NCBI RefSeq assembly: GCF_000226095.1
Contig: NC_016478.1
Span: 2,408,001 to 2,472,000, forward strand
From: Thermothelomyces thermophilus ATCC 42464
Taxonomy: Eukaryota > Ascomycota > Sordariomycetes > Sordariales > Chaetomiaceae
Direction: 5' to 3'
DNA length: 64,000 bases
Shown: positions 39,761-53,959 of the stretch, one piece after another
Position numbering within the stretch: position 1 is the stretch's first letter
How the letters are laid out: the number at the start of each line of letters is the position of its first letter
Made by a program: the position numbers and the translations under genes
Notes under the pieces: generated by a model
Told to the model about the DNA's origin: nothing
The model's database searches: none
What the model saw: the letters and a program-made list of their open reading frames with translations, nothing else

Positions 39761-42424
39761 AGAGAAGCACATTCTGGGAAATTGTGCATTGAAAAAAAAA
39801 GGCCTGGCGTCACGGAGCTCGTCTTGCTACGGTCCATGCATACACAACAAGTACTGGGGTCTTGAGCCTACAGCATATGTGGTTTTTGACACGTGTTTGT
39901 CCTATCATCAGTGAGGGGTTGCGGTATTATTATTCGGTTTGCTTTTGGGCTTGCGGCATCCACTCTCTGGTGCTGGTCACCTTGTCTCTGTATGATACCA
40001 TCAAAAACTAGTTTACAGCAGGGTGGTTAAGTTTGCTCTGCAGCAGCTTAGGCGGCAATCGATGTTATTTGCGTCATCTCCACACCAACCCAATTCAGCA
40101 CAGGGGACGTCTGTCATGATTGGTTCGCGTCGAACAGGAAAGGCGCGAGAGAATGTGTCAGCAAGCACGAGATGTAGAGTAAAACATAAACTGTTGTTGA
40201 CACGAGGTTGCCACATTTGAGAAAGGGATCCATGTCTTTGCCAGCTCGGGTTAGGCTTGGCGGTTCCTCGGCAAGACTCCGGCGTCACCGTTCGAGCATC
40301 TGCGTGGATCGGCACAAGTACGGGATCTCCTTGGCAAGGAGCTACGCAAGAGACATACCGGTGCTACTGCCGCGATCCGCAGTGGGGCCCGGCTGTTGCG
40401 TTTTTTTTTACTAGTACGCAGTACGGAGTACGGATTACTCCGTACACTAGTGCACGAAATAGATTTTCCTGCTGAACATGAAGAACCACGTTTACCTCCT
40501 TTGCCTTGCTCAAGGTACTGTATATATGTACATATATAACCGCATGCCAAAAAAAGACTACCAAAACATCGAATAGGGCAGGTCGGCTGCGACCGTGTCG
40601 GGGGCTTCAGCGCCCTCGAAGATGTTCGAGAAAGGTCTTTTTTTTTTTTTCCTTGGGCTGAATGGGGTGATGATGTTATGTATGTACGGGATGCGGAGCA
40701 CCCCAACATACGATTTCGCTCTTCCTTCGGCGAGGCGAGACTCTTCGGCATGCATGCATGGAATACTACTACTTACAGTATGCACCTGATCTGCCGCCGG
40801 CCGGCCGTACTTGAGTGGTAGTTATGTATGTGGCGTCCTCGGAGATGGCTGGCTGGCTTCGGGAGCCTCCGGTCCCCTCCCCTCCTCCCCCTCCGCTCCT
40901 CTCCGGCTGCGCTGCGGATGGTGGTGTGTTGTTGCTGTTGCCTTTTTTCAATTCAAAGCGAGGTTTTCCCGTGGTGTGGTCGGTGGCCTGGTGTGGGGAA
41001 CGGGTTGCGTTTTTGGGATCTCTGTCAGCAGGCCTCATCGGTGTGCGTGAGCGCGTGGGATGTACGGATTACTCCGTAGCTTACGCAGTAGTTTACTTCT
41101 CGAAGAAACTTTCGATAGGTGGGTATGTTAAGGTATGTACATACATACTCGTACAGTACGATACGCATTGGTATGCAAGGTATGTAGTGTACGGCAGTGG
41201 TGGGTTGTTACGCTAGTGGGTTCGGTCGATTAAGGAGATAAGGGCCTTGGCTTGGTTCCGTGCATTTCTTTTTTTCTCTCTCTTGGGTGTTCCGGTCCGT
41301 GGGGGCCAGCGGGCAGGGTCTGGGCTTAGCCCGAACTGGGTACCGTCGGCATTTCGGTGGTTTGTGTGGTTCCAAGGCTCGGATGCGGCAACTTGCTCGG
41401 TATGCGATGGCAAAAATCGGGGCCAAAACGAGAAAGGAACAGAAGAGAAAAAAAAAATTCTGCTCGATGTGCCTTTTTTTTGCTTTGGCGATGCTGGTGG
41501 GATAAGTTCAGATGAATGCAGGCAGTTGGTAAAGGGTCTGTTCGTTCGTTCGTCGTTTGTTCGTCTGTTCATAACAACATTTGCAGAGCAGTTGAGTTGA
41601 ATTGTTGATACCCCTGAATTTCCTGTCCCGTGTCGTTTGTGCCATCCAACAACGAGGTTATCCAACACGGATTCGGTAACCATCACCCACTCAAGGTCCA
41701 CAGCGCTGGAGAAGCGATTCTCAACAGACAGGGTTGTGCTTACCTGAGCCTCTTTTCTGGTTTCATCTAGACAGTCCTATTCTGTCCGAAGTTTCTGTCG
41801 CAGTCGTTGGAAAGCAGCAGTTGGGTTGTTGTTGCACTTTGGGCTCATCCCAGTTGGATTCAGGGTCTTTGCGGGTCACGGCTCATTCGCTCACTTCGTC
41901 ATCGGACGCCACTTTGCCGTACTAGTACGCTGTTGCTGCCGTTGAATTTTTTTTTGTATGTACCACCGGGGGAGCTCTTCGGTAGTCGGGATCTGAGGGT
42001 ATTTGACATGGCGGATACGGAGTACGGAGTAGGGTAGGTAGGTATCCACAAGAACAACAATTTTTTTTTCCTGTTGAGTTTCTGACTTCCCTCGCGGAAA
42101 GGAGGGGAGGGGGGGGTTCCAACAGACAACTTTTCATCTCGGCGTTACTTTCAGCTGCTGTTCCACCGTTCCCCCGTCCTGTCAGGCTCGTCTAATCTGG
42201 GTGGTCGGTCGCTTGCTGGACGCCGTTGCGCGCATAGTATCACGCGCCACGGTTGGGACGCGTCGATAACTCGAACCTCCTCCCCCTCTTTTTCTTTCCG
42301 CCAAGTCCTCCTTATCTGCCATAGCTCGCCAGCCTCGTCAACCTCTCACGCCGGACCGCCCCCACCGAGGCCAAGCCGACAACGAGTACGCAGAGCTCCC
42401 AGGGCGCCGCCAGACAAGGCCCCT
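39761..42424. other. intergenic region between the two transporter genes
   Basis: No gene is seen in 2.7 kb. It is the densest area for the TACGGA(G/T)TA word: 40422-40430, 40429-40437, 40436-40444, 41063-41071, 41070-41078, 42016-42024 and 42023-42031. The last 250 bp before 42425 are C-rich and probably form the leader of the amino-acid permease. Confidence 0.6.
40421..40445. repeat. 10-bp inverted pair of TACGGAGTA words
   Basis: GTACGGAGTA (40421-40430) and its reverse complement TACTCCGTAC (40436-40445) are separated by 5 bp, and a TACGGATTA word overlaps both through the spacer. CTAG tetramers flank the structure on both sides. The arrangement could be a dimer-binding site or a hairpin. 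Confidence 0.85.
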
Positions 42425-44168
42425 ATGAAGGCCAGCGCGGTTCCGGGGGACTGGACGTCCTCCGGGGAGGACGTTGGCGTCATCGGGTCGACGGCATACG
42501 CCGTCGGCGGCGAGAAGAGCAAGAAGACGGGCGAGAAGGGCGCCAGCGACGCCGACTCGGCGCAGCAGGGCGAGCTGCAGCGTCAGCTCTCCGGGAGGCA
42601 CCTCAACTTCATCGCCATTGGCGGCACCATCGGCACCGGCTTCTTCCTGGGCACCGGCACGGCCCTGGTCAAGGCCGGCCCGGCCGGGTGTCTGATCTCG
42701 TACATGTTCGTCGGGACCATCTTGTGGTCGGTGATGGTCTGCCTGGGAGAAATGGCGACCTATATCCCCACGGCAGGGGCATTCTCGGCCTATGCGACGA
42801 GATTTGTTGATCCGAGCCTGGGCTTCGCGGTCGGGTGGCTGTACTGGTTTGGCTGTAAGTTGGTTGTTCTACCTCTTCCCCCCCCCCCCCCCGGCCCCCT
42901 TTCGCATTTTCTGCGTTATGACGCGGATGATGGTCGGTGGTACTGACACGCATGTTTGTTTGCCAACAGGGGCCACCACCTATGCCCTCTCACTCGTTGC
43001 CGCCGGCCTCATCATCCAGTACTGGAATCACGACCTGAACATCGGCATCATCATCGCCATCTTTTGGGTCGTCTTCACCGTCGTCAACCACCTCCCGGTC
43101 GGCATCTACGGCGAGCTTGAGATGTGGCTGTCGAGCCTCAAAGTCATCACCATCGTCGGCTTCATCATCTTTGCCATCTGCGTCGCCGCCGGTGTCGGTC
43201 AGGAGGGTGTCCTGGGTTTCCGGTTCTGGAAGGACCCGGGCGCCTTCAACGAGTACCTGGTCCCCGGCGGGATCGGGAAGTTCGTCGGCTTCTGGGCGGT
43301 CATGATCCAGGCCTCGGTGTCGTATCAGGGTGCCGAGCTGGTCGGCGTGGGCGCCGGCGAGGCCCGCGATCCGCGCAAGACGGTGCCCCAGGCGATCCGC
43401 GTCACGTACTGGGGCATCATGCTCCTGTTCGTCGTGACCATGCTCCTCATCACCATGGTGGTGCCCTCGTCCGACCGGGAGCTGCTCAGCGACTCGTCCA
43501 ACGCGTCAGCCTCGCCGCTCGTCATCGCCGCCCGGCGCGCCGGCGTCAAGGTGCTGCCCGACATCATCAACGCCGTCCTCCTGACGGCCGTGCTCTCGGC
43601 CGCCAACTCCAACGTCTACTCGGGCAGCCGCGTGCTGCTGGCGCTCGCCGAGGAGGGCCAGGCGCCCGCCATCTTCAAGAGGACGAACCGGTGGGGCATC
43701 CCCGTGTGGGCGGTCGGCGGCACCGCCGCGTTCGGCCTGCTCGGCTTCCTCAACCTGTCCGAGGACGGCGGCAAGGTGTTCAACTGGCTGCTCAACATTA
43801 GCGGCGTGGCCGGGTTGACCACCTGGGCGAGCACCTGCCTGTCCCACCTGGCCTTCATGCGCGCGCTCAAGGCCCAGGGCATCCCGCGCTCCGAGCTGCC
43901 GTACGTGTCGCGCTTCCAGCCGTACACGGCCATCTACGGCCTCTTCTTCAACGTCCTCATCACCCTGACGCAGGGCTTCACCGCCTTCGTCCACTGGAAC
44001 GTGAGCGACTTCTTCGCGGCATACATCAGCCTGATTCTGTTTGTGCTCCTGTGGGCCGGGCACAAGCTGTGGTACCGGCAGCCGAGCGTCAGCCCGGCAA
44101 AGGCCGACTTGGTTCGCGGTCGCTTCGATCTCAACGGGGAGAGATCGGCGGCCGATGGTGGGGTATGA
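42425..44168 (+). CDS. amino-acid permease (fungal APC/YAT family)
   Basis: Two exons (42425-42854 and 42970-44168) give 542 aa. The hydrophilic N-terminus (about 55 residues) is followed by the family signature LSGRHLNFIAIGGTIGTGF and about 12 membrane segments. Other hallmarks are the TM3 region GEMATYIPTAGAFSAYATRFVDP, YWFGWATTY across the splice junction, the loop GAELVGVGAGEARDPRKTVP and SAANSNVYSGSRVLLALAEEG. It imports amino acids by proton symport at the plasma membrane; general versus dicarboxylic or aromatic preference cannot be read. The intron (42855-42969) has a C15 run followed by GGCC. The gene is convergent with rvt, whose stop codon lies 337 bp away. A start at the first ATG of the frame keeps a typical N-terminal length. 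Confidence 0.92.
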
Positions 44169-44221
44169 GCATGAGTATGATTATGAGCCTGGGCCGGCGG
44201 ACCTGTGACTCGTGATTCCAG

Positions 44222-44266
<45 letters not shown>

Positions 44267-44504
44267 AGGAGACGGGAAGGGAACTCCCGGGGGAGGAAGG
44301 GGGACGTGTGTATGCCGCGCTCAAACTCTCGTGGGATGGAGGCTCGGTTGGGCAGATAAGCAATCCCGGGGCGAGCGGACAAAAAAAAAAGACCCAACAG
44401 CGTGTACTGTGTATGATAGAAGGTCGTGCATGATTTAGCGACGGCATATGTCTACATTCTTGGTTGCTTCCCAGACTACGGCGCGCTCTTTCGCGCGCAC
44501 GGGC
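44169..44504. other. convergent 3' region, amino-acid permease / rvt
   Basis: These 336 bp must contain both 3' ends. The main feature is the A40 run at 44224-44263. A second A10 run follows near 44381-44390. Confidence 0.6.
44224..44263 (+). repeat. A40 homopolymer tract
   Basis: Forty consecutive A begin 55 bp after the permease stop codon. No target-site duplication or retroelement reading frame is seen beside it, so I treat it as a simple repeat. Confidence 0.9.
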
Positions 44505-47464
44505 TCATAGAACCATGTTCCAGCTGACCTTCTTGCCCCTCATCATGGTCAGCACGCCGACAGGCAGGAACTTCTTGTCGACCAGGTTGAGCCCGCCAAA
44601 ATTCTCGAGCAGCTCTTTCGCGTAGAGCTGGAGGAGCCACTTCTTCTCGGCGTCGAGCCGGACACTGTTGGCGAGGAACTCCCTCAGCCCGCTCTCTACC
44701 TCCTTGCTCAGCGCGATGCCCTCCATCTCCGGAACGCAGATCAGCTTCTCGAAGGTCTTTAGGAAGTCGGAGCTCCATCGTTCGCGGTAGCGGGAATATT
44801 CTTCGAGCGAGAAGAAGCTCGTCATATCCGAATCCGAAATGACTCTTTCCCTGGCATCCTCGTCGTTCAGGAAACATCGGCGCAGCCGCTGATGCCGCTC
44901 CAGGTCGTCCAGGCTCTCAAAGTTCTTCTTTTCTTCCAGGTACTTTTCCCGCTCTCTCCTCAGAAAGTCCACGATTACCTCTTCAGGGCTCTCGGTGATT
45001 TTGTTGCGAACCAGGAACAAGCCGACGAAGGGGTTCCGGAGCCCCAGGCCTCCCAGCTGTTCCGGCAAGTAGATGAATGAATCCGGTAAGTTCGAGACTC
45101 CGAAGCGATCCTGGATCATGCCCTTGACTAGAAGGGGGGGGGATTGGGGTGGTTAGTGTACTGCACAGAGAGCAAACCCATATACACAGTAGGCGCAAAT
45201 ATATATATGTATATATGGGGGTCAAATTTCGCTTACTGTGTTCGACGACGCTTCCTTCCTTGCCATCTGAGCCAGGGAACAACCTCTTCATCATAAGGCG
45301 ATACGTGTCCAGGACCGCGTCGATATGCTCGCGCCCGAAGCAGTAGGCAGGTTCGCCAAAGGTGTGGCTAAAGAAACGGCCGATGCAGCTGTTCCATGTC
45401 TGGACCCACGACAGCACGCTGTTACACTCGGAGAGCTGCTTCTTGAGCTGGTCGACGTGCGCCGCTACCAGCTTGTCGTCGATGCCCCATTTGCCCGTCT
45501 TGGGGTCCAGACATAGGAAGCCTATCCGGACAGGGCCAACAGGCAGTGTTCGGGCAATGGTCGGATCCCTCTTGGCCGAGCCAGGGAGGTAGACGGACCC
45601 GGTCTTGGACTTGTTGAACTCGAGGCCAAAGACCCTGGCGAACGACTGCATGCACTCCCAAGCCTGGGCGCTCCTTTCCGGCTCGCCGACGAGCCAGATA
45701 TCGTCGTGCAGGCGGTACAACAGCATGCCGGTTTTGCGGTTGACGGCGAGATCCATGAAGAACAGCACCAGCTCCCCCGTGAACTTCTCCGACGAGTGCG
45801 CCATGGGGACGCCCCTCTTGCGGATACGGGGGCCGAGCTGCGGCCGGTTGTCCGAGGCGGCGTCCAGGTTCAGGGGAGACTCGAGGTACTTCTTGAAGAA
45901 GTCGATCCAGTCCTGCCCGAAGCCGACGTAGCGCATAACGGCAAAGATTGTGCTGTGCGGGAGACCGGTGGCATACCACTGCAGATCGGTCTGGACCAGG
46001 GCGACGCCGTGCCCGGGGCCTTCGCGGGTGTCGTACGTGACATTTCGCAGCCGATGGACCATCAGCTCTGCGGTGAGGTAGCGCAATAGTTGCTGCTTGA
46101 TCCCAGACCGTTTCGGCGGGTTGTAGCTCACGTCCACCTCCTTCACGTTCTTCGCACCACCATCGTCATCATCATCGTCGTCGTCCTTATCGTCGTCGTA
46201 TCCGACACCGCCATCGTATAGTGATGTCTCGGTGGCGGGCAGCTGCGAGAGCAGGAACGTATTGATGTAGTCCGACTTGCGCCGTACCTCCATAGACCCG
46301 CCATAAGTCCCCTTGGTACCCAGGTAGAACCACCTCCTATTGGAGTCGGCTGCCGAGGGCGCCATGTGGCCCTCAAGATCCCGCAAGCACACGGCGTTCA
46401 TGAAGTTCTTCAGAGCCGGCTTGAGCATGTTACAGAGTCTGATGCCGATATATTGGACGAAGATCATTTGCAGGATATCGTCGTCGGCCCATATCCGGTA
46501 CTTGCCGTTGAGGCCGCGGCGGGGCATGACACGAATACCGTCCTCTCCGGCGTCCCAGTGCCACTGCTTCAGGTCGGAAAACCGCATGTTCAAGACATCG
46601 GCGATCTCCGACTTGGCCACATCGCTCTCGAGAAAGTCGCGCAGGATGGCCTGCTTCTCGTCGCTGAGGATATCCTCGGTCAGGAGCCCCTTGATGCAGC
46701 TGGTGAGGGACTCCTGGGTGAAGGGAGCAGTCTCGGAAGCGAACTTTGTGCTCTCCCTGGCGATCCTGTCGCGCAGCTCTTTCAGCTCTCTTTGGCTCGC
46801 CTCGTCCGAAAACAGGTCGTCGAGGAAGCTGCGGATCTCGACCTCATCCGTCTCGAGCGGCTCGAACACGACGGTTTCAAACTTGTCGACGAGCTCGCTC
46901 AGCCGCTGCCGTTGACGTTCGATAAGCTCAAACGAGTCTTCGTCCGGATCGTCGGCCGAGGCTGGCAACGGGTCGGTGACGGGCTGATCCATCCATTCTA
47001 CAGGCGCAAGTCAGAACAAGAAAAACAAGATATTCCTAGAACGGGTGACAAAACCAAAAACATGGCAGGGAGGCTTAGTGTATGGATGTGTGTTACATAC
47101 CAGTTAGGAGGCGCGAGTACAGATGGGCCAAGTCCAACTTGCGGCTCTGGATGTCAAGCTTGCCGCGGAGCTGGCGGCTGAAGCTATCCAGCTTAGACAC
47201 GGGGATCGAGGCGTCATAGCGCGACTGGTCCAACCAACGCTGGACATTCTTGAACTCGGCATCTTTCGATGCGGCTGGGCATAGTTCCTTCACGGCCTCG
47301 AGAAGGCAGGCGAGGCGGTCCCGTTCGTCGACGGCGGCGTCGGCTTTGGCCAGATACACACGCTTGCGGTCCTCGTACGACTTGCGGCGCGATTCCAGCT
47401 CGCGAATCTTGCTGAGCGTGATGCTCTGCAGCGTCTTGGAGAGGACTGATTTGGGAGTCGCCAT
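44505..47464 (-). CDS. rvt: reverse-transcriptase-related cellular protein (rvt)
   Basis: Three exons (47101-47464, 45237-46997, 44505-45127) join in frame to 915 aa. The N-terminal part (1 to about 240) is charged and helical, likely coiled coil. An RT fold follows: motif A VQTDLQWY with Asp459; motif B-like RKRGVPMAHS and FTGELVLFFMDLAVN; and motif C LHDDIWLVG with Asp553-Asp554 after His552 instead of the usual Tyr/Ala-x-Asp-Asp. All three catalytic carboxylates are present. An acidic Asp run (about 388-401) lies in the insertion before motif A. No endonuclease, RNase H, gag or terminal repeat is present, and two ordinary introns interrupt the frame. This matches the single-copy rvt genes described by Gladyshev and Arkhipova in fungi and other taxa, not a retrotransposon. 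The physiological role of rvt is unknown. Start MATPKSV was chosen over an in-frame ATG nine codons upstream because it begins the conserved-looking helix. Confidence 0.88.
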
Positions 47465-47567
47465 GGTGGAAAGCCTGGTCACGGCAAGCAAGAGACAATG
47501 TAGGGGACGATGCGGGCAGGATTAATGAGCTCGAGGACGATTGGAAACGATTGGAAAAGGAGCTTGA

Positions 47568-47574
47568 CGACTCA
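47568..47574 (+). promoter_or_regulatory. near-match to CPC-1/Gcn4 site
   Basis: CGACTCA differs by one base from TGACTCA, the element bound by the general amino-acid control factor. It lies 104 bp upstream of the rvt start. A single near-match of this length is expected by chance in a kilobase or two, so this is only a pointer. Confidence 0.2.
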
Positions 47575-47743
47575 ATCCATCCGAGTCCATGGAGAGAGCG
47601 GATCTCGGCGGCTTTATCTTCAGATTCATAAGTTGTGTGCTTCAGTCGAAGCAGAAGCCGAAACCCCGTCATCAGCTCCAGGCAACAGACCACGGGGGGC
47701 CCTGCATTCAAGTTATGCTTTCTATCGTCGACTGGGCATGTTT

Positions 47744-47768
47744 TGGTTCACATGGTTCACATGGTTCA
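47744..47768 (+). repeat. catggttca 9-bp tandem repeat
   Basis: Two complete units and one partial unit of catggttca are arranged head to tail in the rvt/AROM divergent region. Confidence 0.85.
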
Positions 47769-48696
47769 CTAGTCAGGGTCGAGATTCTTCAAGGACGTCT
47801 TGCTGCCTGCTTGTTGCCTGTTGTGGCTGCGGGATAATGCTCTGGGGAAGCCACGCGAAGTGGAACTGGAAGTAGCGGGTGGGTCACGACACGATATCGG
47901 CTATGTGCAAAGCGTAATGCGGGACAATTCGTTGTACTATGTAGACAGCATGAGCATTCGCGCAGTTTGCCAAGATTCGCGGTGACCGAGGCGAACCAAC
48001 GTGGGCCAGAGCAGTCAATGATTTGATGCAGTTTCGCTTCCGGCTGGCGACTGTGTTTCTCGGGGTGTTCATAGGTGGCCTGACCAACCTGGTTTCTCGG
48101 GTGGCTTGTCATCTATGCTGGCTTTATTCCTCGCTTTCTATTAATCTTAAATTCTCCTCTCTCGCGCGCGCACTCTTTATCATATTACTCCTTCGTAGAG
48201 GAGAGTCTAGAATAACCCAAGGTCGACAGCGCTTCGGCGCTCTGTGTGCATGCATACAGTATACGCAGGAACCATCAAATGTACGGCGAAGCGGTGGGAA
48301 GCTGCGGTAAAAACCTTAGTAAAACTACCAAAATGGTGTTGTGCCAAGCTCGAAACACGGCTCAGGAGGGTGGGGAAGAGAAAGGCGGTTGGGTCGACGT
48401 GGTCAATTGACATTGACATGCCCCACAGGCAGCTCAACAGATGCCCCGCCATGCCGCTTTTGCAGAACCCCACCATTGGCAGCTCCGACAGCGGCTCTTC
48501 AGTCACCCGGAAGGTCATCTAAAGCATTACGCCGGGCCACGCTGAGCGGACTAGTTGGACACGACGGCGGTAGACCTTTAGTTTCTGTGTTTCCTTGGTC
48601 CGCGCATGATTTCTCTCTCAAGTTGAGACAGAACGGCCTGAGAGTGCATACACACACGCGCGCACACACGCACAGAGGCTCCTGCTCAGAATCTAA

Positions 48697-53959
<5,263 letters not shown>

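Follow-up and report, generated by a model that had tools for sequence, protein, structure and literature searches.

The DNA analysed here, hereafter the window, is a stretch of 64,000 nucleotides (nt) from Thermothelomyces thermophilus ATCC 42464 (GCF_000226095.1; NC_016478.1, positions 2,408,001-2,472,000), and all positions follow its own numbering unless another contig is named. The genome comprises 38,744,216 bases in 7 contigs. On the minus strand of the window lies a gene for a reverse transcriptase (RT) that profile evidence places in the cellular rvt family: its reading frame starts with the ATG at 47464 and its coding sequence, 2748 nt including the stop codon, specifies 915 amino acids in three exons. 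The lengths of the two introns are not divisible by three, so that retention of either one breaks the frame. An original prediction, made from the letters alone, had this gene model right in every respect (coordinates, two introns, protein length, D459 and D553-D554). The features of the gene are the following.

44505..47464, minus strand: rvt gene, three exons, 915 amino acids (gene model; RT_UG37 match at 1.5e-52; hhalign to bacterial relatives, E 2.7e-45)
47101..47464, minus strand: exon 1 (gene model; co-linear with the paralog introduced below)
46998..47100, minus strand: intron 1, 103 nt, GT..AG (gene model)
45237..46997, minus strand: exon 2, with the RT core (gene model)
45128..45236, minus strand: intron 2, 109 nt, GT..AG (gene model)
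44505..45127, minus strand: exon 3, with the C-terminal domain (gene model)
47279..47452, minus strand: proline-free N-terminal segment, residues 5-62 (58 residues), aligning with the bacterial proteins; candidate coiled coil
46162..46197, minus strand: Asp-rich run DDDKDDDDDDDD, residues 389-400; absent from the paralog, with GAC or GAT at every Asp codon
45955..45996, minus strand: RT motif A VQTDLQWYATGLPH, residues 456-469, with catalytic D459 (alignment)
45985..45987, minus strand: catalytic Asp459 (TDLQ at 458), invariant in 14/14 sequences
45970..45972, minus strand: Ala464, five residues after the motif A Asp, at the steric-gate position (alignment; gate position as reported in PMC7274783)
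45700..45705, minus strand: catalytic Asp553-Asp554 in motif C, RLHDDIW (LHDDIW at 551) (gene model, alignment)
44622..44624, minus strand: Tyr877, C-terminal, invariant in 14/14 sequences; candidate protein-priming residue

By its profile matches, we assign the gene to the cellular rvt family as a fungal member; its homology to the rare UG37 proteins of Chloroflexota extends over nearly the full length. The PADLOC model RT_UG37 (labelled DRT) matches the window copy at 1.5e-52, which puts the rvt frame far beyond chance, and matches a second copy in the same genome, the paralog, at 2.3e-62; the next-best PADLOC models reach 5e-5 and 6e-4, respectively, and other RTs score on the RT_UG37 model at just 1.4e-6 to 5.3e-12 (5 of 12 genomes). 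When a profile of 12 bacterial relatives was aligned with the two fungal proteins (hhalign), the match spanned residues 7-902 in 767 columns, with a probability of 100 (E 2.7e-45). In the profile check that the original prediction had called for, the best match is RT_UG37, and Pfam RVT_1 is silent; because PADLOC collects defence proteins, it is Pfam, together with the match to bacterial proteins over the whole length, that bears on a LINE origin. Neither Pfam nor NCBIfam holds a family that matches the window copy at E<=1 (in Pfam, RVT_1, integrase, endonuclease, RNase H and the telomerase domain are unmatched), and the predicted absence of retroelement partner domains is therefore borne out. 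A PHROGs scan yielded nothing useful (one weak match, to the paralog, at 0.043), and a single-sequence search of PDB gave one match, at 0.56, in the region of the Asp-rich run.

The fungal gene is tied to RTs because bacterial UG37 members do pass the Pfam RVT_1 cut-off (5/5 tested, E 2.5e-11 to 6.1e-16). Furthermore, a profile of all 14 sequences (the two fungal copies, from one genome, and the 12 bacterial relatives) matched 24 distinct PDB sequences at E<=1, among them group II intron RTs (4.4e-9), R2 (7.8e-6) and a retron (0.0014), around the palm. A tree of the RT core gives weak support for grouping the fungal pair with UG37: the 14 rows separate from six other RT rows (five bacterial, one from a retroelement of the fungus' own genome) with a support of 86/91, short of the star level of the program, where long branches meet, UG37 is not recovered as one side of a branch, and the fungal pair falls beside the bacterial locus L051 (83/84). 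In a tree of the 14 rows with the fungal pair drawn as the outgroup, the split between fungi and bacteria is supported at 100/100. Profile evidence indicates, moreover, that bacterial rvt and RT_UG37 are the same thing. We found no paper equating the two in a body of literature that lacked the main rvt and UG-classification papers, and newness cannot be asserted for the link.

Amongst bacteria, RT_UG37 matches at E<=1e-20 occurred in 15 of the 400 genomes sampled in Chloroflexota (the phylum of Flexilinea) and in 0/1474 genomes across five other phyla, namely those of Phormidesmis (0/339), a Bacteroidetes metagenome-assembled genome (MAG; 0/345), Nocardiopsis (0/346), Paraglaciecola (0/299) and a Victivallales MAG (0/145); silence in such a sampling search does not prove absence. 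Twelve of the 15 matches are full length, with 786-836 amino acids counted from the first Met of the open frame, by which some N-termini may be too long; the alignments omit the three genomes with partial matches only (G340, G277 and G240). The protein at L043/L059 is the sole RT_UG37 match in its own genome at that threshold and is very probably the RVT of Herpetosiphon aurantiacus (HaRVT). Bacterial rvt is clearly under purifying selection, weaker than that on the adjacent hisG: over 15 pairs amongst six close orthologues, the ratio of nonsynonymous to synonymous divergence (dN/dS) is 0.064-0.153 for rvt and 0.00-0.027 for hisG.

Searches elsewhere were silent. A profile of the fungal pair found no relatives in our collections of genome contigs or viral contigs, nor did the 14-sequence alignment in the viral contigs or tblastn with the window copy on plasmids and with the paralog on phages. 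The pattern HDDxW...K had one match in viral contigs, in an open frame that on inspection does not encode an RT. HDDxW...N..K occurred at 18 loci in genome contigs, 12 of which served only to reach genomes and phyla for the UG37 sampling; tblastn of both fungal proteins on 19 pattern loci gave a best E of 0.40. The HDD pattern missed the bacterial relatives because these carry VDD, IDD or MDD.

The alignment of the 14 sequences has 42 invariant columns (41 with a second aligner), and the catalytic triad D459, D553 and D554 is intact and invariant with both; the prediction of a domesticated, rvt-type RT with intact catalytic residues is upheld. Also invariant are G517, R550, N583, K586 and G588, and further towards the C-terminus N657, H679, W872, Y877 and P897; in the N-terminal segment, so are K19, L23 and L54. 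The exception to this conservation of the active site lies five residues after the motif A Asp (D+5). There, all 12 UG37 bacteria have Tyr (Tyr403 in L043/L059), five of five other bacterial RTs have Phe or Tyr, and the one retroelement row from the fungus' own genome has Tyr; the fungal copies have Ala464 (window) and Gly423 (paralog). The aromatic residue at D+5 is gone from both fungal copies, and the stretch from D459 to the LPH position is ungapped in three alignments. Two other changes nearby are restricted to the fungal rows: Trp at D+3 (Trp462) and His before the Asp pair of motif C (His552). HIV-1 RT also has an aromatic residue at D+5, Y115 after D110. In telomerase, this position is reported to be the steric gate that keeps out ribonucleotides; the Tribolium enzyme has D251 in motif A and Y256 as the gate, and its substitution Y256A lowers sugar selectivity from 14,000-fold to under 2-fold (PMC7274783). 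The loss at D+5 is new to us and was absent from the original prediction; we found no paper joining the steric gate with rvt, which is weak evidence of novelty, the primary rvt papers being outside the literature covered.

A long variable region precedes motif A in the window copy and includes the Asp-rich run, twelve residues with one Lys. The run stands beside an alignment gap with respect to the paralog, which has only a short acidic GDEEGD at that place, and it occurs in none of the 12 bacterial rows. The predicted Asp-rich insertion is therefore present, and its supposed lineage specificity holds only in the sense of being specific to one copy within this set of 14 sequences. It looks like the outcome of codon-repeat slippage in a tolerant loop. 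A big loop, 2a, has been described between RT motifs 2 and 3 of rvt proteins (PMC5718144), and the variable region with the run may correspond to it.

A protein search of the genome, in which 5/5 candidates were scored, recovered the window locus (exon by exon) and one other, at C2:2136290-2138911, the next match in the genome reaching an E of only 0.95. The second locus corresponds to the following gene.

L010:1489-4125 (L010 being contig C2:2134790-2140411): paralog gene, 879 amino acids from the ATG (genome search)

The paralog is 37% identical to the window copy over residues 6-912 and consists of one unbroken frame with neither stop nor intron, which aligns across both intron junctions of the window gene and thereby supports its splice sites. 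Between the two copies dN is 0.71 and dS 1.30; with synonymous sites near saturation, the duplication or transfer must be old. Accordingly, the claim that rvt is single-copy does not hold in this genome. As for multiple genomic copies, which the original prediction had listed as a finding that would count against it, a second copy does exist, which makes this true in part, but a pair of loci that diverged long ago does not amount to a transposon family. The proposed dN/dS check is informative for the bacterial orthologues given above; the fungal pair is near saturation. A TGASTCA site occurs 419 bp upstream of the ATG of the paralog.

In the window, rvt is flanked by two genes of amino-acid metabolism and transport. 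An amino-acid permease on the plus strand (end of frame at 44168) converges with it at the 3' ends, and a run of 40 A (plus strand, 44224-44263) lies between the two. On the other side, the divergent AROM gene for aromatic amino-acid synthesis starts with the Met at 49132, and its product comprises the Pfam domains DHQ synthase, EPSP synthase, shikimate kinase, dehydroquinase and shikimate dehydrogenase N.

49132-53817, plus strand: AROM pentafunctional enzyme, single open frame (Pfam)

The bacterial neighbourhoods were studied at 10 loci; L050 and L052 were omitted, their contigs being short there. In 6/10 loci (L059-L064, all one close group), hisG, identified by Pfam on the L059 copy, precedes rvt on the same strand at a distance of about 30 bp; rvt and this gene of histidine synthesis probably form an operon there. 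Neighbours differ at the remaining four loci and include a leucine-rich repeat gene in L057 and, about 80 bp ahead of rvt and on its strand, a gene for a TIR-domain and beta-helix protein (L065:9505-10914).

How might such an enzyme work? Proteins of the rvt family are described as having an N-terminal coiled coil giving multimers and as polymerising ribonucleoside and deoxyribonucleoside triphosphates (NTPs and dNTPs) in a Mn-dependent manner. We put the probability of the following account, taken as a whole, at about 60%: a cellular rvt with non-classical polymerisation, NTP use and a role in stress. The protein would assemble via its N-terminal helix. The palm (D459, D553, D554) would add nucleotides without a classical primer-template, and synthesis might start on a C-terminal tyrosine, for which Tyr877 is the candidate. 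With Ala464 in place of the aromatic gate at D+5, the enzyme would accept NTPs no less readily than dNTPs. The product would serve a stress response such as that to amino-acid starvation. That the window copy is active, as originally predicted, we still infer.

Gladyshev and Arkhipova are said to have found in 2011 that the Neurospora RVT favours NTPs over dNTPs, with Mn2+, and Yushenova and Arkhipova in 2018 that the Herpetosiphon RVT prefers dNTPs and multimerises by its N-terminus, its protein priming reportedly depending on C-terminal tyrosines. The difference between fungal and bacterial residues at D+5 fits this reported difference in nucleotide use. As regards function, the original statement that rvt has no known cellular role has been overtaken: according to a meeting report of 2023, rvt aids bacteria, fungi and rotifers exposed to antibiotics or starved of amino acids, this relief of stress needs intact catalytic residues, and polymerisation is non-templated (PMC10680173). 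The RVT of Neurospora crassa is described as dispensable for growth, induced upon inhibition of protein synthesis and endowed with terminal transferase activity (PMC3520738). The hisG neighbours in bacteria and the amino-acid genes flanking the fungal copy fit a role in starvation, albeit neighbours alone prove nothing.

Several observations weigh against this account. Pfam is blind to the window copy at E<=1 and reaches the paralog with RVT_1 only at 0.043. The loss of the gate is seen in two fungal sequences, both from one genome, and may not extend to fungal rvt at large, and Trp462, Tyr463 or His552 might replace the gate. Finally, no TGASTCA site (CPC1/Gcn4-type) lies between rvt and AROM, where there is one half-site, GASTCA, at 47569, and the whole window has seven such sites, near the eight or so that we estimate by chance. 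We rejected CPC1/Gcn4 sites as evidence of starvation control.

The alternative that survives best, though we consider it unlikely, is that the fungal enzyme works as the bacterial protein does, as a protein-primed terminal transferase that polymerises DNA, with the choice of sugar unaffected by Ala464. The catalytic residues and the C-terminal Tyr are indeed common to fungi and bacteria, and Trp462 and His552, present only in the two fungal rows, could rebuild the pocket. The NTP preference that Neurospora RVT is said to have does not agree with it. Moreover, the equivalent change in telomerase nearly abolishes sugar discrimination, as reported in PMC7274783.

Rather improbable, too, is a eukaryotic antiviral RT akin to class 2 DRT, which would copy a short template from a separately encoded RNA. 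The idea draws on the DRT label of RT_UG37 in PADLOC, on the next-best models for L041, L059 and L065, which include UG17, UG4, Drt3a and Drt9 (and AbiP2 for L059), on the TIR-domain gene adjoining rvt in L065 and on a conserved block of about 200 nt located 3' of rvt (L059:6701-6904, minus strand, with counterparts at the corresponding position in L060-L064). This block holds a 12-bp hairpin, a promoter-like TTGAC and the palindrome TTGTAAACGTTTACA, and it folds better than shuffled sequence (0/200 shuffles as good, z -3.45). However, a change on both sides of a stem is seen in just 1/50 pairs, nhmmer found the block neither in eleven other loci nor in the window, and its identity (85.6%) barely exceeds that of the rvt coding sequence (82.5%) and of another short gap (82.7%); Rfam had no match in the eight of the 10 bacterial loci that were searched or in window 42000-50000. 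The block could be either a terminator plus promoter or operator of the next gene, or a small RNA. A conserved RNA partner for rvt is not supported by these results. The upstream neighbour, hisG in the six loci, likewise speaks against a defence system, as does the non-templated activity reported for rvt (PMC10680173).

A decayed or captured retrotransposon RT (LINE, LTR or Penelope-like), intact by chance, is scarcely credible. RVT_1 elements do abound in the genome (1117 candidates, 150 of them scored), and the family profile reaches the R2 (LINE) RTs at 7.8e-6, behind the group II intron RTs; but none of the 150 scored matches lies in the window, the retroelement domains are unmatched in Pfam (the LINE and Penelope-like comparison being limited to Pfam profiles), a bacterial family is matched over the whole length, and the genome has just two full-length loci, 37% identical, the window copy with introns. 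Many of the RVT_1 elements elsewhere in the genome carry TAA or TAG stops within the match, in a pattern that resembles damage by repeat-induced point mutation; beside them are sets of copies that score equally and keep frames of 1264 or 1287 amino acids open.

Returning to a cellular, NTP-using rvt, we tentatively carry it one step further, at somewhat less than even odds: fungal rvt would be RTs turned RNA-polymerising by loss of the steric gate, derived from a dNTP-using UG37 bacterial enzyme. The crossing would have gone from bacterium to eukaryote (a direction that we assume), with Tyr at D+5 lost to Ala or Gly, next to the Trp at D+3 and the His ahead of the motif C Asp pair, and the enzyme would make untemplated, possibly protein-linked RNA during amino-acid starvation. 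If so, one residue would explain the opposite preferences reported for the Neurospora and Herpetosiphon RVT, and the difference at D+5 offers a testable, one-residue account of differing nucleotide use between fungal and bacterial RVT. The tie to RT_UG37 by profile places rvt beside the UG/DRT enzymes. According to a 2017 review, RVT was at that time the sole RT group known to have members in both bacteria and eukaryotes, and its origin was obscure (PMC5718144); a 2025 preprint also links telomerase and Penelope-like RTs to bacterial UG enzymes (PMC12632851). The gene belongs to a known family; its natural loss of the gate and its link with UG37 are the points that merit follow-up.

Set against known systems, the window gene resembles the telomerase RT (TERT) in being a domesticated cellular RT with the same gate position at D+5; TERT keeps its Tyr there (PMC7274783), and by Pfam rvt has no telomerase domain. 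With the defence RTs DRT2, DRT9, DRT10 and AbiK, it shares the DRT label that PADLOC gives to UG37, and protein priming is reported for several DRTs (PMC12483538, PMC12632851); unlike in those, no defence partner or RNA is shown here, and the reported role of rvt is in stress. The RVT of Neurospora crassa, compared through its description, is alike in being an intron-bearing, RT-like gene outside retroelements that has the catalytic Asp residues; rvt in general is described as having a big loop ahead of motif A (PMC5718144). T. thermophilus differs from fungal rvt so described in having two divergent copies, one of them intronless, and an Asp run before motif A in the window copy. The two loci lack close copies, in keeping with the non-proliferation of rvt, although one copy per genome, taken literally, does not apply; a conserved C-terminal domain with a Tyr, a trait of the family, is represented by the invariant Tyr877 and Trp872. 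A further close system is bacterial rvt/RT_UG37 as in L043/L059: the proteins are co-linear over the 767 columns and have motifs A, B, C and D, the C-terminal Tyr and GG.G in common, yet the bacterial relatives are only 17.9-22.0% identical to the window copy. At D+4/D+5 the bacterial proteins show [FY]Y, and their motif C reads [VIM]DD; in the two fungal copies, D+3 to D+5 is W-[YF]-[AG] and motif C reads HDD.

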